Origin: Liolophura sinensis
Taxonomy: Eukaryota > Mollusca > Polyplacophora > Chitonida > Chitonidae
NCBI RefSeq assembly: GCF_032854445.1
Contig: NC_088303.1
Span: 21,645,501-21,709,500 of the forward strand
Length of the DNA stretch: 64,000 nt
Reading direction: 5' to 3'
This document shows positions 2,923 to 62,760 of the stretch, in pieces. Below the pieces are notes generated by a model. The model ran no database searches. It saw nothing but the letters and a program-made list of their open reading frames with translations, and was not told where the DNA came from. The position numbers and the translations under genes were made by a program. Position 1 is the stretch's first letter, and each line of letters begins with the position of its first letter.

Positions 2923-17836
<14,914 letters not shown>

Positions 17837-24853: not shown

Positions 24854-25102
24854 GTAGCGTATGCATAGCAACACCAACAGCTGTAGCGTATGCATAGCAA
24901 CACCAACAGCTGTAGCGTATGCATAGCAACACCAACAGTTGTAACGTATGGATAGCAACACCAACAGTTGTAACATGTGCATAGCAACGCCAACAGTTGT
25001 AACCTTTGCATAGCAACGCCAACATTTGTCACCTCTTCATAGTAACGCCAACATTTGTAACCTCTTCACAGCAACACCACAGTTGTAACCTATGCATAGC
25101 GT
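24854..25102 (+). repeat. 29-bp minisatellite, about 8.5 copies
   Basis: Unit gtagcgtatgcatagcaac followed by accaacagct, 29 bp. The first three copies are almost identical; divergence then grows steadily toward the right end (gtaacctcttcacagcaacac). Because 29 is not a multiple of 3, all minus frames show similar repeated peptides, which explains several overlapping spurious open frames here. Confidence 0.9.
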
Positions 25103-27406: not shown

Positions 27407-27412
27407 TTTATT
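27407..27412 (-). terminator. Candidate poly(A) signal of the Ig-mucin gene
   Basis: tttatt on the plus strand gives AATAAA on the minus strand, 124 bases beyond the TGA stop. Spacing suits a short 3' UTR. Confidence 0.4.
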
Positions 27413-27535
27413 TTGCGACAACTGTGGTGGTAGTTTTGCCAATACTGCGTGGCACTTGTTCATCACATCGTCATTATGCATAGCATCGGCATTTACGACA
27501 CTTATTTGAGTGTCTTCTGCAGGCTTTGCTCCAGC

Positions 27536-30500
27536 TCACACGGCAGTGACATTCGATGACACTACATCCGGTGCCTCTAAGCCCGCGTTCATCTCATCAG
27601 CATGGGGTGGGGGTGGTGGAGGCGTACGGTGGGGAGGAATAGGTGGAGGCGGGGGCAAGTCTTCAATCGACCTACAAATAGACTCAAAATTATTAAAACC
27701 GAGTGGTATAAGGCCATTTAATAGCAGACCGTGAAAGAAAAAAGAAATGTCTTTAAAAAACGATTGTAAACTATTCGGAAAGAGCCGATGTGGCCTATAT
27801 GAATGGTATTGAATGTAGTTTCACAAACTGACGTTGGTTTATTTGACCCAAAATGCCAATTTAAAACTGCCGGTTTTCTGTCAAAACGCATGTATTTTGT
27901 ATTTTGTCTAAATTTAATTGAACCAGTTTCATCTTTACCCAACGGTACAGACAGTGCATTAAAGTATAAACACAAAATCTTACTTGGTCATTTCATCTCT
28001 CTCTGGAGCCAAATCCTGTTCGTTATAAGACATCTCCACACCATTGCTGAGCCTTTCATCTGCAAGTGGACTGCCTTTAACCTCCGGCGGTACTGCCACA
28101 GGAGATAGCCTGTGTCAACAGAAAACAGTTTCCATATTAAACAGACGGTATTCTGAAACAGGAAATTGATTATTATAGTCTGATTATCGCAAAGACCACA
28201 AAACACAGTTACATTTTTATAACTATTTATGCCAAAAGTATCCATTCAAACATGTGTTTCCTTTCCTACCACCTGCATTCTTTTCAGCTTGACTGTTGTT
28301 AAAACTGATATAGTACTTTGCTCTTGACCTAATCACGAAGTGATTTTTAAAGCTTGTTATAATCATCCAAACTGCATTCGTATTAACTGTGTCATATAGA
28401 TAATCCAAAACGATGATGTCTCGATCATTGTGACCTGTCAGTTTTTGATAAAGAACTCACCTCTCAACTGGTGGCTCCTCCCCTTCCGGACTGATCATTG
28501 GTGGAGTGGTATCAAAAGGTTCCTCGATATCCTGAGACTCTAGCTCTACAGTGTCCACGGATTTATCTTCCAGCTCTACGTTAGCGCCATTTACAATGCT
28601 TTCCTTGACAATCATCTCCTGAGGTTCCAGTTCATCAAAAACAGGGACGTGTTGCTGTGGGCTGACATCTAGCTCAATATGCTCGCCATGAGATGAAGTG
28701 GGGGGTGGTGAAGGCTCCTTCTGAGGACTTGTCTCTGGGGTAATCTCTCCAACAGGACGTGTTTCCACGGGATCCTCGTTTACCTCCTTATCTTCTTGTA
28801 GCCCATGGTCATGATGGGGTGCAGGGGGAGGTGGCGGTGGCAAGATGGGTTTTACGGGCTCGCTTTCTTCTGCTGGTGTTTCTTTGTTCTCCTCCACAAT
28901 TTCGTCTGTAGTATTTACGTTTGGCTGAACCTCCTCGGGATTGTTGTGTGTCTCAGCCTCAGCCAATCCCATGGGTTCGTTCTTGCTATCTTCGTTTGTC
29001 GCAGCCGCTGCTTCGTCCGCATTACGTTCAGTGTTATTAATGTCAACCGTTGTCAAAGTGTCTTCGCAATGGCTAATTCTACCGTTGGGACCAGGTGGAA
29101 CACTTTCAGGTTTTTCCTTAATTTCGATCCCTTCACCTTCCCCCTCTTCCAATTTTTTCTCTGAAATTTGGACAGTCTTCTTTCGCCGGATGCGTGGCAA
29201 GCACAAGACTAGTATAAAAGCATAGATCAGTATCAGACAAAAGGCACCTAAGATTGCAATAGTCGCTATGGCCGTTGGGCCAAATCCAGAACAGGCATAA
29301 ATCGCATCGTCAAAAATCATGGAACCGTTATGAGCGGTACTTTCCGAAGCATTTCTCAGATCCACCCTTTCCGCAGTAACCTTGTTTTCAATGGCCACCG
29401 GAGAGTTACTGTCTCTTTTCCTTCGTTGGTTGATTGGGACAGCTGCAAAGTCTGGTATGACATTGACAACACCAGTGCGCGCATTCTGGATGGATTCATT
29501 TATAATCTCAGTTCGTATATTTTCTTCTAGATTAACGTCACTCTCTTCTAAATCTGTGTCAACGCTCTCAAGGAGGGATCTGCTTGAGTTAGCGTCCGAG
29601 CCAGTGTCCACCACCTCCCTAGACTGTATCTCGGTTAATTCGGTAGATACTGTGGCTGTTGTAGCGAAAGAAATCTCAAGCTGTGGGATTTCCGTAGCTG
29701 ACTCTTCTGCTGATGTTTCCAATACAGACGTATCGTCTGATAACATGGGTGATGGAGATTCATCGGGTGTCCTTTCGCGTGTGTCAAATATTGACGAATT
29801 TTGCAAGGATAAATCCGTTGGGGAAGTTTCGGAGGGTGATGGATTTGGTAAAGTAGCTACAGGCAACGGCTCCTCAGACGCCAGGCCTTCAGCAGCTGTT
29901 GCCAAATTACCAAACGGCGTAACGTCAATTTCTGTGTTGCTCTGTGTAGGATTTCTTGTGGAATCTTGCGAAGGAAGACCGTCCCGTGGCTCTGCCGATG
30001 ACGTGGCTTCAGATGATCCCGATGTGAAAGAATCCGAAGAAGTTGACGAACCCACGAGGATTCGATCAGCAACAGCTAAAGCCTGTGTAGCTGTTGTTAC
30101 TTCAGAAGTTGTTGTTGTCGAGGATGTGAAAGTTGGTGATTGTGCTGAAGTGGAGGGCGTCGAGGAACTTGTTGAGGTTGTCGTGGACATTGTAGTCGTT
30201 GGCGCAGGGGTCGTCGTTGTCGTCGTAGTTGTAGTTGTTGGGCCTGGTGTAACTGTGGTTGCTGGGTAGCGAGCTGAAGAAAAGAAAAGCTAATGAAAGT
30301 CTATTAGCACAACTGAGTTTACCATGGGTGGACTAAGAGACACAACAACACAAGAAATAAAGCTAATAAGTGTCGCAAATACCTATGTTTATAACGCAAA
30401 ATTAGCTGCAAGCTTCTGCTTTCCTTCTCTTGAATATATCCTTTTCACCTCCATTCTACATGACAATTAAAGAAAATTTAACCCTTACGCTTTATTTTTA

Positions 30501-33500
30501 AGTACGTTGTACGTATTATCCAGTTTCCAGCGAAGTATCCTTTGCATAGATAGTTTCCCTCATGTTTTGGTTGCAGATTTCCAATCTCCAACCGAAGAAA
30601 GCCAAGCCAATATCTTGCTCCATTGCTAGAAAACAAAACAGAGTGCAAAACATAAGCCGAATTATTTCGACTACCAAGTAACAGAATATTCCTTGAATAC
30701 TTATGACTCAATATACACCTTTACGTAAATTCGAAAATCCTTACAATCGACCATTATTTTTACAGTATAGTTACAAACAACCGAGAAGACGAAGTTATTC
30801 TAAAACAAATTTCCGCTGATCAAACGTACGTGTTTTTGCCTTGAATAAAGAAGATATTCTAAAAACCACACACCAAATACTGGAGCCATATAACGTTTCT
30901 TGCAGAATGAAAGTACCTTGGCCCTTGTAGGCCTAGATGCTTAATTGATTCTGTCGTAAGTCCAATATTCTTTGACCAATGAGGAACACTGATGTTCCTC
31001 CAACGTCCCAAGGTTTCCTCCAACCTCAAAACTTTATCATCATCATATAAATGAAATATTTTGAATAAAATAAAATGGAGTAAAAACACCAAGCAAATAA
31101 ATAAACAAATAAACGTACCTATACCTCCGAGAAGCAGGCTGCACTTCCGGTACTCGTCTTCCGGCATTATCCTCCCAGTGTAATGATCGGGTTAATTCTC
31201 TACAGTTTGCCTTGCAGTTTAGGAACAAAGTTTCGCCCTCGTTCATTTCCAGCATTGTGGATGGCAGAATAACTAACTCACAGAGGGGCCTGTACTCAGG
31301 GACTGGACCAATCACAGAACCGATCTGTTCCCATGGTGGAACTATTAAAAAGAATAACGACACAAGTCGAAACAAATGAGCAAACAGAATCATTTAGGGA
31401 TAACATGATAACTGAAACAAATGGAAGGTGACGGAAAGTTCATTTACAATCAACTGTACCCCAGCGCTGACAGACTGCTTTGGGATTTCTATTGCCTTTC
31501 CGAGCACTTCTGTCGAAGCAACTCTCCACATGTAAGCTAACTTTTAAATGTCATGACATCAAACGAACTAAAAACAATCTGTTAGTTTTAACAAAAAGTA
31601 TGTTGCTTGAGTGATATTATAATGTATTCTGTTATTGTTACAGATTATTCTGTTAGATATAACACATATATTCTGTTAATTCAACATGAAGATTGGATTA
31701 AACTAACAGGATATTATGCTGAATATAACACAGTATTATGTTATAATAAGAGAATACGTTCTAGCACCACTCAGACAACAGACTTTTTGTTAAAATTAAC
31801 AGATTAATTTAATTTTTTTAACAGATTTATTAATTTTAAACTTACAAAAGCTACAAAGGCTAAAGCCTGTTATTTAAAATGGAGAGGTGGAAGCTGGGGC
31901 ATTTTACCATCACACATCATTCATACTTGACTAAGTTTAGTAATTATTGACCAACTCTGCAGAGGTTAGGAATGCATATCTTCATTTTAAAAATCTGTTG
32001 GACCCTTGGTAATCAGTAATGTTTTCAACAAATTTGATTCTTGATTACAAAAATAATTAGCCAACGATATGTCATCTAGGCCAGTGTCAGCAATATAATA
32101 TCTCGGCCAGGGACCCGTTTTAATGTCTCTATTGTGCCCATTACAAATGACGTCTTACACACTGTTTCAGCATAACAAGTTATAGAAGAATTTCAAGTTT
32201 CATGCCTTTACCTCCGTTTGCGACAAAACGTGCTGAATTCAATGCATGTAGATAGCATCACCATTATAAATTACAGAACCTATCCGATTTTGAAAGCCAG
32301 TTCATCCTTTTTAGACACAGTTATGATTGCTTTACTCCTGTTCTAGACTTCAACTTAGCTACATGTATTATTTTGAAAGCTCATATTTCCACAATGTTTG
32401 TATCAATGCGTTTTACTAGTCGTGCGTTAGCCTTTAAGTAACAACGCAGAGGTAATAAATACAAGTGGGTGTTTGTATGACGGAACGCTCAGTACATCCA
32501 AATTACCAAGTGTACGGAAGGACACATGGACTAAAATGCCACAAAACTATGTGTGTGGTCAACACCAAATAATACATCTTAATCTACGGAGCCCGTAACA
32601 AATGAATGTTAGACATATGTCATATGTACATGGGAGAAAAGTGCTTTTTCAGGGCGAGATCCGCTTTCCATTTGTTGGCTTACTGCATTCCAGTTTGCAC
32701 ATTATTGGACGGTGCGGTCACGTGCCAAACCTTGACCTTTGACCCACTGAATCGTACATATACCAGGACAGCTATATCATTTTCCAGTGGAAAAGACATA
32801 GTTTAGGAATTTCGCAGGGAAAAAAACAGCATTTCCAGCTGAAGCAATACGACTGTTGAGTACCATTTCCTGTTCACATTAACCTAAGTGACACGAATCT
32901 AGCTTTCGTTTGTTACTATAAGGCACTAGAGACTCCAGTAGTTTGAAAAAAGACATAGAGAAGAAAACTCCTGCTTTCCTCCATAACGTCTGTCTTGCGA
33001 AAGAGCAAATCATGGTTGGAGACAAATTACAGCGATGCGTATTTGCATACGAGGCCAAAAAAATCGCGTTAAGGTGAATAATAGGTTACCAATTTTCGTC
33101 GCTTGTTTTACAATTAAGTCAACGACTTTCATTAATGTTAATTTTATAACATTGTATCTGTTTTAGCTAATTATTTGAACTAATCAGTAAAAGCACAACC
33201 TAAGTAGATTGAACAATCAAACGGTTTTAAAATCGCATTCATCAGCAAGCCAATTAGTTAAGACTTTTATAATTTTTTAGATTGGCAAAACAAGTTCGTT
33301 GCCATGCTGAACACCTCTTACTGAGCCAGAACAACAATATTTTAAAAAATACCGATGCAACAAAATGTTTAGTGCATTGCTGTTTCATGTATACATAGTT
33401 CAATCAATAAAAATTGTGTTGAGAGCTATAGCCTCAGTATTTACAATCAGTTCGATCAAATAGTGCCCGTAAATAATGACTTAGCAACCATGGTCAGGAA

Positions 33501-36500
33501 CTTAATAAATATAGGATATTGCACAGTGAAGATTGAAAATCATAAATATTTCGAGTGAGAGGCGAAAATGATAACCCACGAGAGGTGAAGCGTCGAGTAG
33601 GTTGTCATTTGCACTTTTCACAAGAACAATATTTATGATATTCAACCTTTACTATACAACATTCTGTTTATTATTTATAGTTTGACAATATCATGATTTT
33701 GTCTGTTTGCACAAGCTTAAGCAATGTTTTTACCTGTAGGCCTTCACAGGTTGCGTGACGTAAGAAATGTTAAGGTTTACTGAACTTATATTATGACGTC
33801 ATTCTGTTAACCTCGGATTGGAACGTCACAAAACAAAATATTCGTTTGTGACGTCATGGCGTCGGAGCGTGTAATAAAAGTGATATCTAATTAGCCAGTG
33901 AGATATCACTTTTATCGGTGAAGGAAATCTTGACATTTCATAATAAAACACTATATCCGGTTGGACATGGGGCTGTCCTTCATGCTCATAAATTCACATT
34001 CAAACCCTACGCTGTTGGTGCGAACTTCATGTAACAGACGTTTTCACTGACTCCGGCTGCTGTGTTTTCATCCAGTTTGAGTTAGTCAAGCAGTTTGTAA
34101 AGCTATAAGCTGGTACTAGAGGTTTTGCAAATAACCAGCTCATGCATGTTGTTTCCAGAATGTATACACATGAATATATAATAACACTTAAGAACAACGA
34201 TAATAAGTGAATGTATACTGGCATGGTGCCAATATTAACAACTAAAGATTATATCCGAGTACCAAAGAACCGCTGCCGAAGCCCCTATAGAGATTCAGCT
34301 GTCATCTGATAAGCTAGCCACGCTTGGGCGTTTCAGGAAGATCATATGAAGTAGTTCTCATGTAATGCTCTCACATCAATGACGAATCAATCTTACACAG
34401 GCTGCGTCAGCGATTCTCCACATGCCAGTGGTGAACCTATCATTACACTGTAGCTCATACTCCATGAAATCTTTTCTGAAAGGGACACTATAGTTCCGCT
34501 TTTGTTTTGCCTGTAACATTTTCCGTTCAAGGCACGGTTGTATACACCTCGCATTTACACTAAATCATCTTAACATATAATCTACTCTTCTGCCTTCGTT
34601 GAGATGGTGACCCTAACATTGTACATTCCGGCCATGTTATCGCCCAACTCAAAGCAATCCCAGTGACGAGTCGTGTTAATGATTAATCATTGAACTTTTA
34701 AATCGCACCATCCTGCATTTGATTGGCCAGGTCCTGCTTGCATAGATCGCTTATCCAATTAGTTGGACGCTGTGTTTTTTCTGTTACCGTACATTTCTGT
34801 CGCTCTACAGAATGCGCATGCAAAGACTTTCTGAGGTTTTCACCTACAAAACAAAAATTACCTATACCTGTAAAAGTTTTAGGGTTTGAAAATTACTATC
34901 ACCTAAAACATGTAACAAAATGGCCACTAAAACAGCTTATGCTAGGCACAGGGATAGAAAAAAATGACCAAGATAACGCGTTGATCTAGGGAACAAATGT
35001 GCAAAAAACACTCCAAACATTTTTCCAGGTCATCCTGGAAATTTATTTTATCAGCGGAATAAGCGCCCATAGAGGAGCCTTAATGGGTTAGTGCCAGGAG
35101 TACCCCATTATCAAGAGTAAACATCCAGACTCTCTGTTCAATAAAACCCCTACAAACCATGCTAGATGAGTGGTGATAACCACTCATGACCTCGTATGCC
35201 TGAAGCTAAAAACACCTTACCGACTGTACACATGGGACGTAATGGTAGCAATTACTATACAGGTTGTGTTCGTCCATCAGAGCTTCATGTACATATATGC
35301 ACGACTTGACCAGCCTTTCGTAGGTAAACGTGCGAGAAATGCAGAAATTACAGAGGAATTCTAATAAAGTCTAACAAAGTAAAACCAAATGCACAAAATG
35401 TTCGAATAAAAATGTAGTGTTTTACTTTCAGACAAATTCCATAGTACCCGAATGTCAAAAAACGTACGGAAGTGAATCATCAAAACAAGAGCATCCCAAT
35501 AGTAAACCTGAATAAAAATTTATTCCACAAACGTTATAAGCTGAAAGCTGACATGCTATAGATGAACTTTTCGGGGTTGTCATCAAAAGAGCATTGTCAT
35601 TTCGATCTTGACCAGGAAAAATTATCGTCAAAATCTGGACACGATATTTCAAATAATGAACCCGAAGGACATGGTCTTATTCAGTCCAGTAATGAATTTA
35701 AACATCGTTGAGAGTAGCACACTGACATTTCAGTAATGAGCCACTAGTGTTCATATTTATTCATTGCATTCATGAAGTTAAGCATGGTGAAAACCATAAC
35801 ACTGCATGTCATTTCAGTAATGAAAGAAAAGTGTTTACGTTTATTGTAATAATGAACTAAGTTTACGTTTATTGTAATAATGAACTTAAAGTTGTTTTAC
35901 ACTTGGAGAACACTGACGTTTCGGTAATGATCGAAACGTGTTCGTGTTAATTCCAGTTATAAATCTGAACGTTCTTTGAAAGCAGAACTGTCATATGAGT
36001 AATGGGCGAAAAAGGTTCAAGTTTACTACAACAATGAACTGCCATTTCGGTAATGAGTTCGTGTTTATTAAAAGGACAAATCTGAACATTGTTTGAAAAC
36101 AGAGCACTGTTATTTCGGTAATGAGAAAACTTGTTCGTGCTAATCACAAGGACAAATTTGAACGTGTGTTGACAGGAGAACACTGTGATTTAGGTAGTGA
36201 ACAAAAAGTGCTCAAGTTTGTTCCAATCATAAACTTAACCACTGTTGAAAGCAAAACACTGTCAATTCGGTAATGGCCGAAAGAGTTCATGTTTAAATGT
36301 TCTTTGAAAGCAAAACCCTGTCATTTCGGTAATCCTGTTAGTTCAATAAAGGACTAATTTGAACGTTTGTTGAAAGCAGAAGGCTGTAAATTTAGTAATG
36401 AACAATAAGTGTTCAAGTTTAATCCAGCTATGAACTTAACAACTGCTGAATTTGCCCAGCGATGGGCAAAATGTATTAGTATTAATTCCAAGAACAAATT

Positions 36501-39500
36501 GGAACGTTTTTGAAAGCAGAACTATCATTCCGGTAATCGTGTTCATTCCAACGACAAATCGGAAAGTTCTTTGGAAGCAGAACATTGCCATATCAGTAAT
36601 GACCAAAAAGTGCTCACTTTCATTCCACTGATGAGGTAAACCACTGTTAAATGGAGAACACTGCGATCTCGGTGACGGGCGAAACGAGTTAGTGTTCAGG
36701 ACAAGAACAAATTTGGACGTTCGCTGGAAGCAGAATCCTGATATCATGGTTGGATCATGGTTGCCTCATAAGATCCTATCTTATTCTATTATGAGATCCA
36801 CTGATCGCCCAGGTTCAATGACATGTAAACAGCGCGTATACAGGTAGTGAGTTGATGCTGGCAAGGTGCCGCTTGTACTACGTGTAATGAGGGACTTCAG
36901 CGTAATCGCCTTTGACAGCTTTGAGTGCAGATGAACGCAAGTGTGCGTACTTAACGGATATCTTTTACTCGTATTACACAGCTACTAGTATATCTAACTA
37001 TCTGCCGTGTAGAGGCTCTGTACGATGTGCACTTATCGACGTGCCCTACAACACTACAACACCTACATGTATATCTTTCAAAGTAGTCAGCACTGGATAT
37101 TGCTCCTGGCTCTGTCTTACAGTGCCCAGATGATCTCAGTTACTATAAGACAACATGTTCTGTAGAAATAAGTCGTTTATATGGTTTCAAGTTCTCAGGT
37201 ACCATGTAAGAGAACATATCCTGTAGAAAAGAAATTGTTTACATGGTTTCAAGTTCGCAGCTCCTCTATTACAACATTCCTGTTGAAATAAGTCGGTAAT
37301 ATTGTTTCAAGTTCTCAGTTCCTGTGAGACAACATATCCTGTAGAAATAAGCCGTTAACATGGTTTCAAGTTTTACAATTGTCTTTGTGAGCAGGGACCT
37401 GAGTCACAAAAAGGATACACAGCAAGAAAACACTTACGATCATTGCAATGCTGCGAATACCAGGCCACGGGATCACGACGCGATCTTAGACTTAAATCAT
37501 AATTTCAAATGACTTTAAAATTGTTGTTTCCTATATTATAAGGTCAATATTTTGCTTGGCAATGTAAATTCTGGGTAAGCTATTGTACAACAAATTTCAG
37601 CTAAAATAACGGAAAGGAACACACCAAATTTAATAAATGAAGTTTTGACTTTTGTCTAAGATGGCTTCGTGATTCCGAGGCTGGGATATATTTATGCATT
37701 TAGACTTGCACGTATGCACATATGTATACCAGTGTAAGGACAGAGTTAGCACGAAACAACGCGCATTGTAGAAACGTTAAAGTGGAATGAAGGACGCGGT
37801 TTGTAGTATATCTGCATGATATAAAACATTGTCCAGTAGTTAAACAAATTTGCATCCATTCCATTATCATTTAGAATCACTTGAATGGTGTCAGCTGACA
37901 CGATCTAGATATATGACTTTCCTTTACACCAAATTTCAGCTAAAATAACGGAAGGGAACATCATGAATTGCATGATTGAAGTTTTGATTTAAGTCTACGA
38001 TCGCTTCGTGATCCCGATCTCATATTCTGATATATACAGGCCAAATCCAACCGTTATCATTTCAGGGTTGACCAGTAAACCGATGATAATATATCAGTTA
38101 CCAAATATCAAATAAACCGGCATCCCAATGATTATCACGAATTTTTTGGTCGCTTTTAGTTTCACGGCGTCATTCAAGCAAAAGTATGTTGGGAGTTGTT
38201 GTGATTGCTGACATAGACTGCCCACTTATTCAGTCTGTTTCACGAATAATAGGTCGCAGTCTCTCTTCAGTCATACTGGAAAACGGTCTGATTGCTGATA
38301 AAGGAAGGTCGCCATTCCAAGGACAATACAGGTCTTAATTTTAAAGCTATCTGAATAGCATCCGGAAACTTAACTTCCGTCAGTTGTGAGGATACGAGCT
38401 ACAAAGAAATGATTGGCTTATTTGTGACGAACGAAAGACCGGAAGTGCGACGAATGGGCCACTTGACCATCTCAAGCTTGATGAACTTTGACATTATCTT
38501 TTTTACTTCAGTGATTTCAAGACAAATACAACGTGGAACTTCGAGGTTGTAACTAACGTGGACTAGTGCTATACTATCACATGTAGTTGACCCACTAACC
38601 TATTTGTAGCCGTGCATCCGAATCGGTATCACTTAGAAACTAGGTCAAAGCAGGAGAAAGTGCACTGAACACAAGTACTTCAAAACTTGAGCGAAAGCCT
38701 AGGTGTTTCTTATGCAACTGTTGCCTCACAATGACAATAGGTAACATTTACTACTTAAACAAGCCGTTCCCACGCAGTGTAAAAGGCACACCATCCTCCG
38801 TTATTAAGCGGTAGAGCATGAGCACCACCTTTAGAACAACTATGCAGAAGCTGTGACGTATTACAGAAAAGAACAAAACTGAATCCAGGTAGACACCTGA
38901 TGAAGAAATACTGATTAGACAGGTATTAACAATAATTATTAACCTGGTATACGTGTGAAGAAAATCAGACAGCAGAAATTAGATAGTCTTCATGTTTGAG
39001 GCAATCCGTCACACAATCTTGCTGACGCACAAAAAAGTTTTGATGACAAAAACAGACTTCTGTTTTGGTAAATACCATCAAAAAAGCACACGAAGGCGCC
39101 GCATATATCGCATATATGATTTTTTAGATAGGGTATATAACAATGTGACATGTGGTTCTGTTGACAACGAGAATGAATAATCACGCTGTGGCCCTCTCGT
39201 GGTTATATAGCATTATAATGAGGCTGCCATATTGTGTAAAATTAACTTGATGTTAAATAAGACGTAAACACGTCTTAAATTAATTCCACATTGTCGTAAG
39301 TATTTTCACTTTAATCGGCTTTACTCGTAATCTACACTCGCATATAAAGAGGAATATCATCCAAGATTCCATGCTGTTTAGGTGTTATCAAACTTTGCTA
39401 ACCCCGGGGCAAGCATTTGTTGCTCGTTTTTGTCAATGACCAACGAAGACTTTCTCCCTCTTCAAGGAGGTGCCAAATATATATTCAAAACCATTGAAAG

Positions 39501-42500
39501 ATGAAGACTCATTCCCGTCATATATACGTCTTTTCTAAGGGCTACTGTCCTTATCCAGAATCACTGACAAATGAAGACTATCTTTGAAAGAGGTACATTT
39601 GTCAAACTTACGCAAAATCGTTGACAAACGAAGACTGTCTTTGGAAGAGCTACATGTGTCAAACTTACTCAAAATCCTTGACAAATGAAGATTGTCACTT
39701 GAAAGAGATACATGTATCAGTCTTATTCAAAATCACTGACAAACGATGACAGTTTCCCTCCAAAGTCAATGAAAAAAATAATGCTCATGATGACGTCAAT
39801 GGGTATGAGAACTTTTACCCACTGGGCGCTGTTTTTTGTCCTTCAACTTGCTTCAAGCCAACGTCAGAGGAGTCATGGGTGGCGACACTTTTTGTTTCTT
39901 TCTGTAAATTTCTGTGTGAGTTTAATGAGAATCAGTGGCCAAGGCGGAAATCTTACGTAAGATCATACCCGGAGACAAAGACACATACGGCGTTCCTTGT
40001 AGTCACATCTGCTTTTACTTTGGGAAAGTTTACAGGGCAGGTCACCAGAGGAGCTTGCAGCGTAGAAGGACTACCACATCACCACCCCAACCCCCTATGC
40101 ACACCAAGTTTGACGAAACATCGTATATTGGGCTCTAAACCTAAAGCGTACAAATTTTGGTGTGTTTTGGCGATATTAGGAAAAACATGAAGAAATTTCA
40201 ATCCTATTTTCCACGTATAATCTATCCGGCGATACATTTGATACTTGTATATAATTCAGGTGAATATGTTGGTGAGATTTGTAAATCTTTTATTATACGG
40301 CATATCCATCCTGCTGTTAAAAAAACCCACAGCGTTAACTTGGATAGTCACAAAATAAACTTGGCTAAAGCCAATAAAAATATTTACCATGCCATAATAT
40401 TAACTGAAAAGAGACAAAGGTACAGATGACCGTACACTGGAAAGAGTTTCGTTTTATGTTAGTTTGCAAATGGGTTTCCGAATACCGATTTGGAACGCTA
40501 TTGCTGTTTGTTGGAGAAGAGAAAAGAGTACAGTGGTTTTTACACTTGGTGCAGTTGATTGATATATCGCTTTACGTCAGTTTAGAAATAAGGTTTTCCA
40601 ATACCGATTTGGAACGTTATTGTGCTTTGTTGTATATATGGTCCTACACTGGTTTCGAAATGGATTACCGAATAATATTGTGAATACTGAAAGTTAGATT
40701 CCCACACACTAAAACAAAAACTGAACACCTCTTTTAAGCTATTCCTAAATAATTGTCAGTAAGCTTTTGGCATGCTCTAATCTCCGGACTCGTGACTAAT
40801 TACTGTGTCTCCGATAATAGCTCACGGTTCGTGTACACAACAACCTCATACGTAATAAGGTCACAGAATGACGGTCATAAGGTCAAAACATCCGGGGATA
40901 CTGGTATCAAGGCATCAGTAAGGGCAAGAATGTCAAGCCTAACACATTCACAATGCGGTTCTGTTTTCCTCAAAAACATTCTTCTTGTTCAGAAATATCC
41001 GGGATATTCTCCATGTCACACGTCTTGTGTTGTCTTAAAATCTTAAAATAATACCAACCTTTAATTTCAATTTCATGTTATCTTTAGAAATCGGAGAGAA
41101 TGTATTTTTAAGAACCATTGTGGTTCTGTTTTCTGACCAATTGTGGTCATCCGCGGGCTAAGCTATGTATTAGCTAATTCAGTCATTTTTAATACCCCCA
41201 CATGGTGACGTTTTTCCCAAGAAAATTCTCTATAATTCCTAACCGTGGCTGTACAGGCTTAATACCATGTATGGAATAATAATAATTCCCTACATGGTAT
41301 TTAGCCTGTATAGTTTCATGCACTCAGAAAACTAATCTGTTAAGTTTAACATAATATTATGTTACTGCAACACTGTGTTGTGGACACCAGAATACCCTGT
41401 TACATCAGCAAAAACTGATTCTGTTGGAATACCAGACCAGGTTGGAAACATAATAGTTTGAAGCGATAACACAATCTATTCTACCATCATTCAGAAAAGA
41501 TGGTATTCTGTCCGCTTAACAACCTAGTTTTCGTGTTGTGGTTTCGGAAGCATTTTTTAAAACTATAGTGTATTCTTGTGAATAACGCAATCTCCTTGTA
41601 AACGGGAGACACGAGTTCAGTCCGATTAAGTTTAAGGCTGACATCAAAATGGGCCGCCTTAATACATGTACTTCTTGGCTTGGCGATCAGAATCTGGCGA
41701 CTGCCTACCGGTAGTACTACAGCCTTTCCGGTGTCAGTATTATAGTGTGACGTTGTGATATGTCTAAGGATCTGTCTAGGGGTAAAAACTATTCACCAAG
41801 TTCAAATACACCTCGCCCCCTATTACTGTTCCACAAAACCCAAATGCTTAAAGTTTTAATGCCCAATTAAATATTTGGTATACCCTTTTGTTTATATATT
41901 GGTGTTTTTGTGTTTTTGGGGGAAAATTAGAAATTCCATTAATTATCCCATATTAGTGAACACTGCCCAAATGGTCAGTTTCCTAGGTTTGCTTTCTCAA
42001 GTCTTTGCGTCTAACTTTACTCGTTTGGCATGGACTTAAGCAGGAAGCCAGATGGTCAAGCGACGGCCTGACTGACCGTTAGCAGATGTTGATAACAGCG
42101 GTCAGCGTCAGTTAGATCAGCCTCTGCCATGGGGCGAGTCATCACGGACACTTTGAACCGTCGGGAACAACTTGGCCAGAGTTGAGACATGAGCAAACTG
42201 CTTTTGAAGATATAAAAAAGTACCCGTACAACTGCCAAAAGACAAGGTTTCTAAAAAAAAATTTGTCAGTGTACGTCATTACATGTCAAAACATATGCGC
42301 CATGCTCTGATGTTCAAAGAGCTGTACGATAAATCCTAGAAACGCTAGCCGCCGTTGTAAAAGTACCAATCAAATAAATAAATTAATAAATCCAAGATAA
42401 GATACAGGGCCAAGTGTGGAGGCCAGAAGCTTGCAATTCATAACAATGTCATGGGATTTAAGGGAAAGTTTAAGAAATAAGCCATGCATGTTTTCAATGA

Positions 42501-44488
42501 TCGAATGATCCTTCGTATCGAATCTGACATGCTGTCAACACCAATGTATCAATGTAAAACTGCAACATCCAACTGCTAATTCAATACAGTTTGAGAAAAC
42601 CATATCATTGGTGAAATGAAGTATCCCCGCAAAGCTTTCATGGTCACACATAAACAGTTATTAAAATGTAACGAGAAATTCGTGTATCAAATTCAAATTC
42701 AGAGTAATTTGGACATCCAAGCTGAGCCACGTATTAAAGTAGTCTCACTGGTTAGCAGACGGCTTTGTGCGGGGACGTTAGATATTCCGTCTACTAGCTG
42801 AGGCTGATGGTTCCAATGGTTTACCACCAATTTAATCCTATCGACGGTCAAATTTATTACAATGGATTAGTTGTGGCGCAAGACCCCAACCCTAGAAAGT
42901 TACTGAAGCATATAAAAGTGAAAAGAAGCGTGAGTTCTACACATTTCTTAATTCATGACTTAAGATCATAAACACTTGCGCCGTTTATGATAAAATTGCT
43001 AGCTAAGAACAAATACAAATGGATCGAAGGATATGAATTCTGTACATTTCTGAATTCACAACTTAAGGTCTTAAACACGCTACATTTTATGAATATTTAA
43101 CATAAAACTGCTAGCTATAAACAACCGTAGACAAAGATCTGTCATGAACGCCTTGCCCAAGCAGGGCTGATATCTTGGAGGCCAGTAGCCAGCTGTAGAT
43201 CTACACAAATAGCCAACACGTCATCGCTACACAACTATTTCACATCAGTTAGGATACAGAGCTGGGGTTCCGCATAAACTTGTCTCCACCCACAAACTGC
43301 TTCCAACCCAGGGTGTTTGAAAGCAAACACTTAATTATCTCTGACAAGGAGATTTTCCAGCTGACATCTGGCAACCCCGTCAACATCAGACCCGTCTGCC
43401 CTACTACCGCATGTCAACCCCAGATTGCAGCGAACGCGTACAACCGCCAGGGCTGAGGGTGGGGGAGTTTGAGGAGGGTATGGAGATGTGGGTCTGGGGG
43501 TGCAGATCATGGTCCTGCCCATTCCCCTGGAGAAGCTACCCTTACCCTTCCTTAATATCACAATAATAACAATAAGGCACGACAAAATTACACCTTAACG
43601 ATCTACTGTAATAGTATCAAATGATTTGTATACAAGGAAAAATCCGCACGTCAACTTACATATTCAATTGTGATCGAAGAAATATATCAAAATGCGAATT
43701 CCTAATATTAAACGGATTAAAAATTAAACAGTTTAAAGTTAAACATAAATTCTATGACTTTTCTCTATTTTGTTCTACCCAGGCACCCAAAGCAACCCGC
43801 AACCGCAACCCGTCACCCTCCCGATCCCTCCTGGCCCCAAATGCCAACCCCTCATTCTAGAACCATCCTGTCCCCCAGACTACTGACTTTCTCTTCCATT
43901 TCCCCCGAGTTTGTTCTCTGCTTAGGTCGTTATGGCCCTATAGCATCTCATAGCCAGCGCGTGACCTCTGAGGACGCTTCACATAGTCATGTTCACATTC
44001 GGGATGTGTTCGCCATCCCTGTCTCCCTGCCTCTATGTTAAACAACTTAACTGACAATATATATGTATATATATATAGTACCACTTATCGCTTCCATTGG
44101 TCGCCGTATTCAGTTGGTTTCCTCCCGTTTTTGACACGCACACTTCTAGGTTTACTGGGGTTAGAACGTCTAACACGGTCATTGTTTCATATAATAGTCT
44201 TAGAAGAAAACTCAATATCTTGTAAAGTATCTGTACTATGAAACAGGACAATAAAATCAGCTTTATTAATTAAGTTCTGGTCTATTTAAGATGTCAGCAT
44301 TTACTCAGTTTGTTGCGTTTTACACTACATCATGTACCGCTGAGTCTTATAAAACACAACCAAAGAAAGCAGATAATGTTGCTCAGTTTCTTTCTCTTAA
44401 ACTTATCACACTTACCGAAGTTGAAGTTCTGTGCCAGAGTAGGAGTTGATGCAAAAAACCAGGCGACACAAAGAAAGTATACTGCCAT
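27536..44488 (-). CDS. Ig-like, mucin-type single-pass membrane protein, 835 aa, 6 coding exons
   Basis: Exons in transcript order: 44488-44416, 31341-31119, 30625-30489, 30273-28461, 28109-27984 and 27671-27536. Total is 2508 nt in one frame, with GT/AG at each border. Residues 1-19 are a signal peptide (MAVYFLCVAWFFASTPTLA). Residues about 45-144 form one Ig-like domain: LFLNC (C67), LHW (W80), LRLEIGNLQPKHEGNYLC (C126), with exon 2/3 split inside it. Residues 145 to about 426 are Thr/Ser/Pro-rich with an early poly-Thr run, mucin-like, with N-glycosylation sequons. RRKR at 427-430 is a furin-type site. A transmembrane helix lies at about 475-502 (IATIAILGAFCLILIYAFIL), followed by basic RIRRKK. 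The cytoplasmic tail (about 333 aa) is acidic, with PPPPPP blocks that could bind SH3, WW or EVH1 domains. I do not recognise the gene. A cell-surface adhesion or receptor role is inference. The link to exon 1, across a 13-kb intron, rests on phase and signal peptide. Confidence 0.82.
30185..30262 (-). repeat. Coding Thr-codon microsatellite (poly-Thr run)
   Basis: Within exon 4 of the Ig-mucin gene, imperfect ACN triplets encode a run of nine Thr followed by PAP and more Thr. On the plus strand it reads as gttgtcgtcgttgtcgtcgt. Triplet expansion or contraction would keep the frame. Confidence 0.7.
31010..31116 (+). mobile_element. Degenerate SINE 3' fragment abutting an Ig-gene donor site
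   Basis: ggtttcctccaacctc, catataaatgaaatatttt, gtaaaaacaccaagcaaata and aataaacaaataaac follow the SINE 3' order. The tail ends directly at the splice donor of exon 2 (donor GT at 31117-31118 on the minus strand), so the intron boundary sits against the insertion. Confidence 0.6.
31600..31830. repeat. 'ctgttaa/ttaacag' rich repeat, copy 1
   Basis: AT-rich stretch with repeated tattctgtta, aacacagtattatgttataa and attaacagatta motifs, partly self-complementary. A similar stretch occurs at 41330-41530 (aatctgttaagtttaacata, then atattatgtta and aataccctgtta), suggesting a dispersed AT-rich family. Confidence 0.4.
33504..33679. mobile_element. Foldback MITE, family B, copy 1
   Basis: Terminal inverted repeats of about 50 bp. 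The left arm reads aataaatataggatattgca followed by cagtgaagattgaaaatcat and aaatattt; the right arm is its imperfect reverse complement, ending in ctgtttattatttat. The loop contains ggtgaagcgtcgagtaggtt. A second copy lies at 47178-47310. Confidence 0.75.
33873..33917. repeat. Hairpin with 15-bp perfect stem
   Basis: ataaaagtgatatct and its reverse complement agatatcacttttat are separated by 14 bases (aattagccagtgag). Two TGACGTCA palindromes (CRE-like) lie just upstream, near 33793 and 33850. It may be the end of a further TIR element. Confidence 0.55.
35680..36750. repeat. Degenerate tandem array, about 60-100 bp units
   Basis: More than ten spaced occurrences of a composite unit: gcagaacactgtcatttcgg, then taatga, then a gaaaagtgttcgtgttta-like segment and ggacaaatttgaacgtt. 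Units are diverged and of variable length, giving an old satellite-like array inside intron 1 of the Ig-mucin gene. Confidence 0.7.
37150..37376. repeat. Tandem repeat, about 58 bp, four copies
   Basis: Four adjacent units share acaacatatcctgtagaaat, then aagtcgtttayatggtttca, then agttctcag. Units start near 37151, 37210, 37267 and 37326. The last copy ends in ttttacaattg. Confidence 0.75.
37460..37685. mobile_element. MITE, family A, copy 2 (best preserved)
   Basis: About 225 bp with inverted ends of about 40 bp. Left: GGATCACGACGCGATCTTAG followed by ACTTAAATCA. Right, inverted: GGAATCACGAAGCCATCTTA followed by GAC. Interior shared with 14661-14901 (actttaaaattgttg, ctattgtacaacaaatt, ggaaaggaaca). 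A right-half copy follows at 37920-38018. Confidence 0.75.
37920..38018. mobile_element. MITE, family A, copy 3 (right half only)
   Basis: accaaatttcagctaaaata, acggaagggaac, then ttgatttaagtctacgatcg and cttcgtgatcccg match the right half of the 37460-37685 copy. Confidence 0.65.
39430..39770. repeat. Tandem repeat, about 58 bp, six diverged copies
   Basis: gacaaatgaagact-type cores recur near 39439, 39497, 39566, 39622, 39679 and 39739. They are linked by ctttgaaagaggtacat, gtcaaacttac and caaaatc segments, with drift increasing to the left. Confidence 0.7.
40430..40685 (+). repeat. Direct duplication, about 125 bp, two copies
   Basis: Both copies carry a cactggaaagagtttcg / cacttggtgcagttgat start and the shared segment aataccgatttggaacg followed by tattg and tttgttg. 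The second copy begins near 40550. Confidence 0.5.
41252..41310. repeat. Hairpin with stem of about 26 bp
   Basis: TACAGGCTTAATACCATGTA followed by TGGAAT pairs with ATTCCCTACATGGTATTTAG followed by CCTGTA across a short aata loop. Only a few mismatches. No promoter or RNA gene signal accompanies it, so it is probably a small foldback element. Confidence 0.65.
42347..42391 (+). mobile_element. SINE tail fragment
   Basis: tagccgccgttgtaaaagta followed by ccaatcaaataaataaat is the last part of the family 3' region and its AAATAAAT tail. Confidence 0.5.
42905..43135 (+). repeat. Direct duplication, about 110 bp, two copies
   Basis: The segment gttctacacatttcttaatt, then catgacttaag, ataaacac, then gctagctaagaacaa recurs as attctgtacatttctgaatt, cacaacttaag, ttaaacac and gctagctataaacaa. 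Confidence 0.55.
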
Positions 44489-45372
44489 TTTCCGATGGAA
44501 GTGAAGTCAAACCGTAATTCTTAAAGTTCCATCCACAGTGGAGTGGCGTAATTCCAAAGTTTAGCTTTTTGTCGACAGAGTCATAACGATGCCGTTCGTG
44601 ATTTACACATCTCCGCCGCGAACGCTTCCTTTGTTCTCACTCCAGCCGCAGTAGTTGAAAAACTGAAGCTGTCAGTCAGCAGATACTTGTAAAAGAAACC
44701 GTGCAGAGAGTCCGCAATGGTCCAGCATTCTAGCCGCGCGAGTTAAGGCGGGTTTACAATTTGAAGATAGTTGGAAAGTAGCGGTGAAACACGACCCTTC
44801 TAGCTTGTGACGCGGAGACCCAGTCAGACTAATGTCCGACTCCCAGCTTCTCACTTTCAGCATGAAGCACCAGCAGTTAAGATGTGGTAAGTTCGTGCAC
44901 CAGTACACAGCCTGGCTAACTTTAATCTGAACTTCGTGGAAAGTTTGATGGTCTTTGTAACACGAGCCCACCCCAACAGTTTGGCTGGGGGGGGGGGGAA
45001 GGAATAAGATGGTGAAACTGGTGAAAGCGGCGAGAAAGAAAAAAAAAAGAGAGAGCGAGAAAGGATTTAGTGAGGAAGCTAGTGTGCGCGATAGGATAAA
45101 CAGTGTGTCTGGGACGTACGTTGGGTAATAGTGACTTAAAAGAAAGCCTTTCATAGTAAAAGATCCTAGGGCATCCAAGCAGGGTGTTAAGCGGCGCAAT
45201 ACATGTACATCAAAACGTTTAAGCTCTCTTGTCAGAAGGCTAATTTGTCCCATTTGAGCAGAGTGTAGGCAAGGCTACCGTAATATCACTGGCTGTAAGA
45301 ATACTGCTCATTCTCTTAATTCACTGTAAATACACATAGTGCACATCATCACAGCTGCGTAGTAATATGTAA

Positions 45373-45735: not shown

Positions 45736-46006
45736 GGGGCCTCCGTGGCTCAGTCGGTTAAAGCGCTAGCGCAGCGTAATGACCCAGGAGTCTCTCACCA
45801 ATGCGGTCGCTGTGAGTTCAAGTCCAGCTCATGCTGGCTTCCTCTCCGGCCGTACGTGAGAAGGTCTGCCAGCAACCTGCGGATGGTCGTGGGTTTCCCC
45901 CGGGCTCTGCCCGGTTTCCACCCACCATAATGCTGGCCGCCGTCGTATAAGTGAAATATTCTTGAGTACGGCGTAAAACACCAATCAAAAAAAAAAAAAA
46001 AAAAAA
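45736..46006 (+). mobile_element. Young full-length SINE with 13-bp target duplication and poly(A) end
   Basis: Same family as the copy at 45373, over 90% alike by eye, with intact box A and box B-like segments. TCACAGGTCAGTA flanks it exactly at 45723-45735 and 46007-46019. Its 3' end is a run of 20 A instead of the AAATAAAT repeat. Confidence 0.94.
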
Positions 46007-46144: not shown

Positions 46145-47010
46145 ATACTCCCTGTGTACTCATCCTCACAGCCCAAAGTAACACAACATGCACGTACAAC
46201 TTATCCTCACAGTTCACGATGTGACAACATGCACGTACAGTTCATTATTATAGCTCACAGTGACACAGTATGCACGTACAACTTATACTCATAGTTCACG
46301 GGGAAACAACATATACTTACACGTAGAGTTTATTGTCATAGTTCACGATGACACAACTTAAGTGACAATATCTAGGTGATACAACACACATGTAACGTTT
46401 ATCCTCATAATTCACGGTGACACAACATAAACGTACAGCTTATCCTCATAGTTCACAGTGAAACAACATGTACGTACAGCTCATTCTCATTGCTAAAGGG
46501 TGAAACAGTATACACGTACAGCCCATCCTCATGACTAATGGTGAAACAGCACAGGCCTACACGTACAGCTTATCCTCATAGATAACGGTGAAACAACATA
46601 CACGTACAGCCCATCTTCATAGTTCACGGTGACACAGCATAGGCCTACACATACAGCTTATCCCCAAAGTACAAGGGGAAAGAACATGCACGATCAGCTC
46701 ATTCTTATAGTTCACGGTGAAACAACATGCACGAATAGTGCGTCCTCAAAATTGATGATGAAACAACATGCATAGTTCACTATGAAACAACACGCACGTA
46801 GGCCTACAGCTCACCCTCATAGATCACTATGAAATATAACGCACTACAGTTCATCCTCACAGTTAACTGTGAAACAACACGCACGTACAGCTCATCCGTA
46901 TAGTTAACTATGAAACAAAACGCACGCACAGCGTATCCTCATAGTTCACCTTGAAGCAACACGCACGTACATCTTATCCTCATAGTTCACGTTGAAGCAA
47001 CAGAAGCTCA
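46145..47010. repeat. Degenerate tandem array, about 45-bp units, near 18 copies
   Basis: The unit is approximately cacgtacagctcatcctcat followed by agttcacggtgaaacaacat. Copies vary in length and in the word caca/gaca, and occasional extra ggccta insertions occur. Confidence 0.8.
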
Positions 47011-61864: not shown

Positions 61865-62760
61865 AGGATAATGGAGGATGTTAAAAACAGTGACCAATGT
61901 GTTGGTGAGTAAGAATTCAGCTCTACAGTCTGTGACCAATGAAGGAGATGTATTAAAGGAGAAGAAAATGTAAATATTAACCAAATACCATTGAAAAAGA
62001 GTATGCATTCCTCGCAGGTGCATGCCATAAAAAATTCTTATATGTACCTCAAGATGATAAATTACAAATAAAGTCAGCGTCAACATCCGCAGTGGGCGAC
62101 TCCATTTTGCCTAAGAACTAGTCCTGAAGTCTTCTGGTTAGGAGGAGAATTGCCGTCAGAAACCGCCGAAGTGCAGTTCGTATATTTCCGGTAGAACTCT
62201 TCTTCTCAGAAGGTAGCGAGCAGTACAGTTCGTTTTCCGCTTGACAATTGGGAAACAGGAATGTTGGACGTAGGTTCCTAGTTTACACGAACAAGCCGGC
62301 AGTTTTAACGACTCTCATTGGTTGAGAGGCAACACAACCCCAGCATAAATTACAGGGTGTTAAAGAAGAAGGGCGCGATGAACTCAGCGATTTATGCCAG
62401 CTTTGCCGTATTCAGGCTTTACGTGTATGTTGAGGAAAAATCGCAAAATTATGCAGCAGGCACCACCAGATAGAAAGAAATGTGCTCTTTTCAGCCCATA
62501 GTGTCATGTTTTTAAGTTTTCTTCTCCTTTAAGAGTCCACTTTTACAGACTGTGACCAATGGGGTGGCATATTACAACCAACTTTTACAGAGAGTGACCA
62601 GTGGGGTGGCATTTTACAATCCACTTTTACAGACTGTGACCAATGGGGTGGCATATTACAATCCATTTTTACACACTGTGACCAATGAGTTTATGTGTTA
62701 GAATTAACTTCTAAAGACCATGATTACTTGGTAACCTGTTAAAATCTACCACTGCAGCCT
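61865..62760. repeat. Degenerate tandem array, about 43-bp units, split by a MITE
   Basis: Units read approximately tttacagactgtgaccaatg followed by gggtggcatattacaatcca. One or two units lie left of the insertion (61880-61952) and about five lie right of it (62533-62760). Related units reappear at 63440-63660. Confidence 0.75.
61957..62528. mobile_element. TTAA-flanked MITE (piggyBac-like), 572 bp
   Basis: Flanked on both sides by TTAA (61953-61956 and 62529-62532). The ends are perfect 12-bp inverted repeats: AGGAGAAGAAAA on the left and TTTTCTTCTCCT on the right. It sits inside the 43-bp tandem array, where neighbouring units without the insertion provide the empty site. No transposase frame is present. 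TTAA duplication is characteristic of piggyBac elements; the ends are not the usual CCC start, so the superfamily is tentative. Confidence 0.75.

Follow-up and report, generated by a model that had tools for sequence, protein, structure and literature searches.

A Liolophura sinensis gene for a predicted Ig-mucin membrane protein, a plausible new cell-adhesion receptor

Neuregulins that carry an immunoglobulin (Ig) domain have a Ser/Thr-rich spacer, are cleaved near the membrane and possess a long tail, and guidance receptors of the Robo/DCC type combine an Ig ectodomain with an LPPPP-type Ena/VASP motif in the tail. The TIM family has a six-cysteine pattern as its defining mark. In TIM-3, according to the portion of the source available, three disulfides are formed (Cys38-110, Cys52-63 and Cys58-109), the FG loop holds a Ca2+ site and the tail is phosphotyrosine-dependent (PMC6269442). 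Here, we describe a gene of the chiton Liolophura sinensis, found in a window of 64,000 nt (contig C9, positions 21645501-21709500; the whole stretch of DNA that was analysed), whose product recalls parts of each of these systems.

Gene model and start of translation

An earlier note on this DNA had joined six exons into one frame for an 835-aa type I membrane protein, and this was borne out: the six minus-strand exons were rejoined in one frame without an interrupting stop, 2508 nt (stop included) encode 835 residues, and all five introns have GT-AG borders, with phases 1, 2, 1, 2 and 2. The chiton gene behind the Ig-mucin protein looks genuine, and its observation is confirmed. Its features are as follows.

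44416..44488, minus strand: exon 1, with the start codon, the signal peptide MAVYFLCVAWFFASTPTLA and a phase-1 donor (chance control 5 of 40)
31119..31341, minus strand: exon 2, holding the first, N-terminal half of the Ig domain (C45, C67, C71 and W80)
30489..30625, minus strand: exon 3, the C-terminal half of the Ig domain, with HEGNYLC and C126; poor donor score
28461..30273, minus strand: exon 4, the Ser/Thr/Pro-rich stalk, RRKR, the membrane stub, the transmembrane helix, the first LPPPP and most of the acidic tail
27984..28109, minus strand: exon 5, a 126-nt tail exon of phase 2 on both sides, placed solely by its splice sites and an open frame
27536..27671, minus strand: exon 6, the tail end with EDLPPPPPIPPHR, the C-terminal VTAV and the stop codon, placed solely by its splice site and an open frame
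27407..27412, minus strand: AATAAA, about 124 nt past the stop codon, a possible polyadenylation signal by motif only

The frame used by exon 4 has no stop over 603 codons, whereas stops number 25, 44, 10, 32 and 28 in the remaining five. Since this open frame has no Met before the stalk, upstream exons are required, and the join of exons 2 and 3 is supported because the Ig match (Ig_3) runs across the splice. A phase-2 intron divides the Ig domain and phase-1 introns lie on either side of it, as is usual for Ig exon modules. Donor scores for the five introns in order, calculated with generic textbook weights not trained on the L. sinensis genome, were 4.87, 3.95, 0.86, 7.28 and 3.8, that of exon 3 (0.86) being poor. 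Reading through the donor of exon 3 (30488-30470, minus strand) or of exon 4 (28460-28457, minus strand) meets a stop after a few codons; intron retention on the exon 3 side would yield a secreted, Ig-only form, and on the exon 4 side a receptor lacking the final 86 residues. In-frame skipping is possible for exon 5, leaving 794 codons, stop included. Additional exons in intron 1 were sought among the minus-strand open frames of at least 45 aa lying wholly inside 31300-44420, a scan that shorter exons would escape, and all 50 of these frames were without a Pfam match at E 0.1.

Exon 1, which sits 13 kb upstream of exon 2, is the weakest link of the gene model; it is likely, if unproved. By a crude rule of our own, the signal peptide would be cut after A19, and an in-frame stop is found seven codons upstream of the ATG, at 44509. 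Upstream of exon 2 (32.7 kb of the window, three donor thresholds), exon 1 is the sole candidate that combines an ATG, a signal and a donor in the right phase. At stricter settings (donor 6 bits) zero candidates were found upstream of exon 2, exon 1 (4.87) being rejected too; the donor threshold was relaxed from 6 bits to 4.5, 3.5 and 2.5 with exon 1 already known, the hydrophobicity threshold went from 1.8 down to 1.5, and one residue of slack was added to the spacing rule. In the real window the same rule also picks candidates in other phases and on the opposite strand (at 4.5, for instance, three of phase 2 on the plus strand), and in first-order Markov sequences an equally good first exon arose in 5 of 40 at a donor threshold of 4.5 and in 20 of 40 at 2.5.

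As for the surroundings of the gene, ten of the window's 275 open frames (at least 55 aa, starting outside 27500-31400) were put to Pfam and two of them matched. Two AAA ATPase exons at 7795-8870 on the plus strand (PF00004, 49.6 and 47.2 bits) belong to an ordinary neighbour gene, which we take to be that of the proteasome subunit Rpt1/PSMC2. At gathering thresholds, the window had no Rfam match. The repeat GATTGGTGTTTTACGCC, together with what follows it, has minus-strand copies starting at 45986, 45624, 23863 and 9256, two of which are upstream of exon 1; four of its seven sites (up to three mismatches) look like true copies by eye, and the repeat is presumably SINE-like. Tandem arrays are found at 24860-25100 (29 bp units, 8.3 copies), 46375-47002 (41 bp units, 15.3 copies) and 62536-62687 (42 bp units, 3.6 copies).

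Ectodomain, convertase-type site and cytoplasmic tail

The single Ig-like domain had been recognised by C67, W80 and C126, and these residues are indeed present on the rejoined exons. The isolated domain matched Pfam Ig_3 with an E of 2.2e-6 and 28.5 bits, under the cut-off of 30, and PF00047 with 22.7 bits against a cut-off of 21.8, the sole pass among the five Ig models listed. In the profile search of the joined protein that had been proposed, all three Ig models listed for the whole protein remained below the Pfam cut-off (17.3 and 22.7 bits). Together, PF00047 and the C-W-C core place the protein, narrowly, in the Ig superfamily. PDB sequences gave generic Ig matches for the domain, the best (E 0.0015) being to DSCAM and an antibody light chain, and Robo1 appeared in the same search as a generic Ig match with an E of 0.0017. 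The Ig region has four cysteines (C45, C67, C71 and C126), with a single Cys in the F strand (YLCKG). C67-C126 is the canonical Ig disulfide pair; C45 and C71 flank the AB turn at equal distances, the midpoint being residue 58 in MNEGE, and from this symmetric placement a second disulfide, C45-C71, could span the A-B hairpin.

The Ser/Thr/Pro-rich stalk, put earlier at about 280 residues, measures 281 residues with 45% S/T/P, but it is dense only at residues 156-205, where S/T/P accounts for 80-92% per 25 residues, and becomes more acidic later; by this density the truly mucin-like part of the stalk is its first part only. An antisense open frame of 311 aa lies over the stalk (29334-30269, plus strand) and is probably just a consequence of the Ser/Thr codons used there. 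The RRKR motif is present, but at 428-431 (29425-29414, minus strand) and not at 427-430, and is directly followed by Asp-Ser; among 20,000 shuffles of the ectodomain, RRKR or RKRR occurred in 0.235% and any R-x-[KR]-R in 8.5%. Its distance of about 45 residues from the membrane holds good, the stub having been measured at roughly 43-50 residues, and so does the transmembrane helix, for which the strongest 19-residue hydrophobic windows begin at 483-485. The stub carries two N-glycosylation sequons (N452 and N460) plus C472, and the membrane region gave one chance-level match to a PDB sequence (E 1.1). A disulfide-held two-chain form looks unlikely, because all four cysteines on the N-terminal side of the cut can find partners inside the Ig domain, so that none would be left for the membrane stub; after cutting, the N-terminal fragment would probably not be disulfide-held, and shedding, or weak or non-covalent holding, would be expected. 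The analysis supports a predicted type I membrane protein that has a single Ig domain, a mucin stalk and a convertase-type site.

The acidic, proline-rich tail of about 330 aa was also recovered: it runs for 332 aa from PRIRRKK and includes 76 D/E and 25 K/R. The motifs carry their usual names (PDZ class I, SH3 classes, ITIM and furin), that of EVH1 following PMC8789275. Two LPPPP motifs are found at residues 622 and 796, their starts 174 residues apart, the second in the context EDLPPPPPIPP with acidic residues before and prolines after; an SH3-type motif, PIPPHR, is at residue 801, and the C-terminus, T-A-V, is of the PDZ type. Exon 6, which is placed solely by its splice site and open frame, encodes the PDZ-type end as well as the LPPPP at 796. 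Of the shuffled tails, 2.3% had a PDZ-type end and 1.2% contained one or more [FL]PPPP. The tail has one tyrosine (777), and a pattern search for ITIM, YxxL/I, YxN, NPxY and PPxY gave no match in it. Exons of the WH1/EVH1 superfamily, which also includes WASP and Homer, are present in the L. sinensis genome, with seven matches over the cut-off. In the portion of the source available, EVH1 domains are described as binding the core [FWYL]PxPhiP, more strongly where the flanks are acidic, where prolines follow and where several motifs are present, the preferred spacing of the motifs being about 5 or about 15; FP4-type core motifs are common, with 4,994 in the human proteome (PMC8789275). The tail fits the Ena/VASP ligand core, with acidic and proline flanks, as a sequence match for putative binding, and its spacing of 174 differs from the one there preferred (PMC8789275).

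The L. sinensis assembly (609,464,459 bases in 632 contigs) was searched with the parts of the protein. The species, at first assigned to Liolophura japonica, has since been renamed L. sinensis as a correction (PMC12441733). The stalk and membrane region retrieved the gene itself alone; the Ig domain retrieved the two exons of the gene and one stretch on another contig (C4; E 1.02, one internal stop); the tail retrieved exons 5 and 6 and nine weak matches elsewhere, of which the best two were rejected as relatives, being plain poly-proline reading frames, and the remaining seven had E values of 0.063 to 5.5. At least 20 V-set Ig exons are present elsewhere in the genome. Within this exon-by-exon search, which scored the best candidates only, the gene appears to be single-copy.

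Candidate function and rival readings

We tentatively regard the single-Ig type I membrane protein as most likely an actin-coupled adhesion or guidance receptor, and the Ig-mucin protein as a plausible new cell-adhesion receptor. The signal peptide would route the protein to the cell surface, where the stalk would be O-glycosylated and stiff; a furin-like convertase would cut after R431, freeing or loosening residues 20-431, and the Ig domain would bind a partner, located either in the matrix or on another cell. Within the tail, LPPPP would recruit Ena/VASP, PIPPHR an SH3 adaptor and the C-terminus a PDZ scaffold, and partner binding would lead to local actin assembly through this recruitment. 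Convertase cutting would set how much of the protein is tethered receptor and how much a circulating soluble competitor. Points that count against this reading are the commonness of FP4-type cores, the 8.5% of ectodomain shuffles with an R-x-[KR]-R, the wide spacing of the two LPPPP motifs, and the weak links of the gene model at exons 1, 3 and 6. A bolder and, in our estimation, quite improbable extension is a class of molluscan receptors, perhaps confined to chitons, that would have arisen independently of TIM and Robo; a convertase-severed Ig-mucin ectodomain would be coupled directly to Ena/VASP and PDZ scaffolds, and one locus would supply a membrane receptor that steers actin as well as a soluble molecule for recognition.

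It is quite possible, and compatible with an actin-coupled receptor, that the protein belongs to a known animal family outside the libraries searched (for example a described molluscan single-Ig protein), in which case orthologues would settle its function. The searches covered Pfam, NCBIfam, PDB and the species' own genome: Pfam returned generic Ig matches plus a sub-threshold TMEM132_C, the PDB matches were likewise generic, and NCBIfam gave no match to the protein. Nothing specific speaks against such a family; among the titles and abstract openings listed by literature searches, no single-Ig, mucin-type receptor of molluscs or other invertebrates was found. The canonical RRKR followed by D-S, and the lack of a spare cysteine to tether the ectodomain if all four pair up, would also suit a membrane precursor of a secreted Ig-mucin protein, cut constitutively in the secretory pathway, with residues 20-431 as the active product (a soluble ligand, a decoy, or a component of matrix or mucus) and the membrane part as a sorting remnant; however, a tail of 332 residues with several ligand-type motifs exceeds what a sorting remnant needs, and we think this precursor rather doubtful.

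Also unlikely, in our view, is a gene model that is wrong in part, with a start near exon 2 (ATG 31393), an exon 1 that belongs to another gene, or exons 5 and 6 as alternatives; the Ig-mucin-membrane core would remain in any of these cases. The chance rate of exon 1 given above, at both the stricter and the laxer threshold, and the early stops beyond the donors of exons 3 and 4 speak for it. A start at 31393 would give 828 aa by our own count, and the in-frame segment before exon 2, MILFAHLFRLVSLFFLIV, passes the crude signal rule with a hydrophobicity of 2.75, compared with 2.27 for the exon 1 signal; however, this hydrophobic run is the pyrimidine tract of the acceptor, which tends to read as hydrophobic, and exon 1 offers a purine at -3, a G at +4 and, in our judgement, the better place for cutting (TLA/QN). 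An immune function, as a TIM-like haemocyte receptor recognising phosphatidylserine or microbes, is the least supported reading and seems to us very improbable: the order of parts is alike (an N-terminal Ig domain, a mucin stalk and a transmembrane helix), but the cysteine pattern and the Asn-Asp FG site of TIM-3 are absent, the tail offers a lone tyrosine and none of the tyrosine patterns tried, and no second genome copy was found, so no lineage expansion is seen.

Were the actin-coupled receptor to be confirmed, the chiton would possess an apparently single-copy receptor with an ectodomain that a convertase may release and an Ena/VASP-directed tail, and a molluscan link between recognition and cell movement could be tested directly; if it is a protein of haemocytes or of neural tissue, its soluble form would serve as a marker. 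Failing confirmation, the protein would join the many and varied other proteins of the Ig superfamily.

Comparison with known systems

The TIM family (HAVCR1, HAVCR2 and TIMD4) shares with the chiton protein an N-terminal Ig domain, a mucin stalk and one transmembrane helix, as described for TIM-3 (PMC6269442). Both have the layout of a type I membrane protein whose mucin domain adjoins the Ig domain, O-glycosylation being predicted for the chiton protein. The TIM-like logic proposed in the earlier note therefore stands for the order of parts, but cysteines, FG loop and tail are unlike those of TIM-3 in the text available (PMC6269442): the Ig domain has four cysteines, compared with six in TIM, without an adjacent pair such as 109, 110 of TIM-3, and C126 is followed by CKGYFAGNWIIRTTYLKI, without the Asn-Asp of the TIM-3 FG loop. 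Moreover, the chiton protein adds a convertase-type site and a long tail, acidic and rich in proline, from which the tyrosine motifs tried are absent. Membership of the TIM family was rejected on cysteine count, FG-loop site and tail tyrosine signalling.

Snail FREPs, in what is accessible of their description, likewise have an Ig domain in a molluscan protein; they were rejected on the lack of Pfam fibrinogen among the matches listed (E up to 10) and because the chiton protein is a predicted membrane protein. TMEM132 shows a weak likeness round the transmembrane helix, an isolated segment only (TMEM132_C, 14.5 bits against a cut-off of 27), and was rejected on this sub-threshold profile and on the genome's clear TMEM132_C match elsewhere (contig C10, 99.7 bits). 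Ig neuregulins resemble the chiton protein in the Ig domain, the Ser/Thr-rich spacer, the cleavage near the membrane, which is predicted here, and the long tail; the assignment was rejected on the single Cys (C472) between Ig domain and membrane helix and on the lack of Pfam EGF among the matches listed, at E up to 10. Finally, the chiton protein differs from Robo/DCC-type receptors in its one Ig domain, its mucin stalk and the lack of a fibronectin III match in Pfam, and has in common with them an Ig ectodomain and an LPPPP-type motif in the tail.
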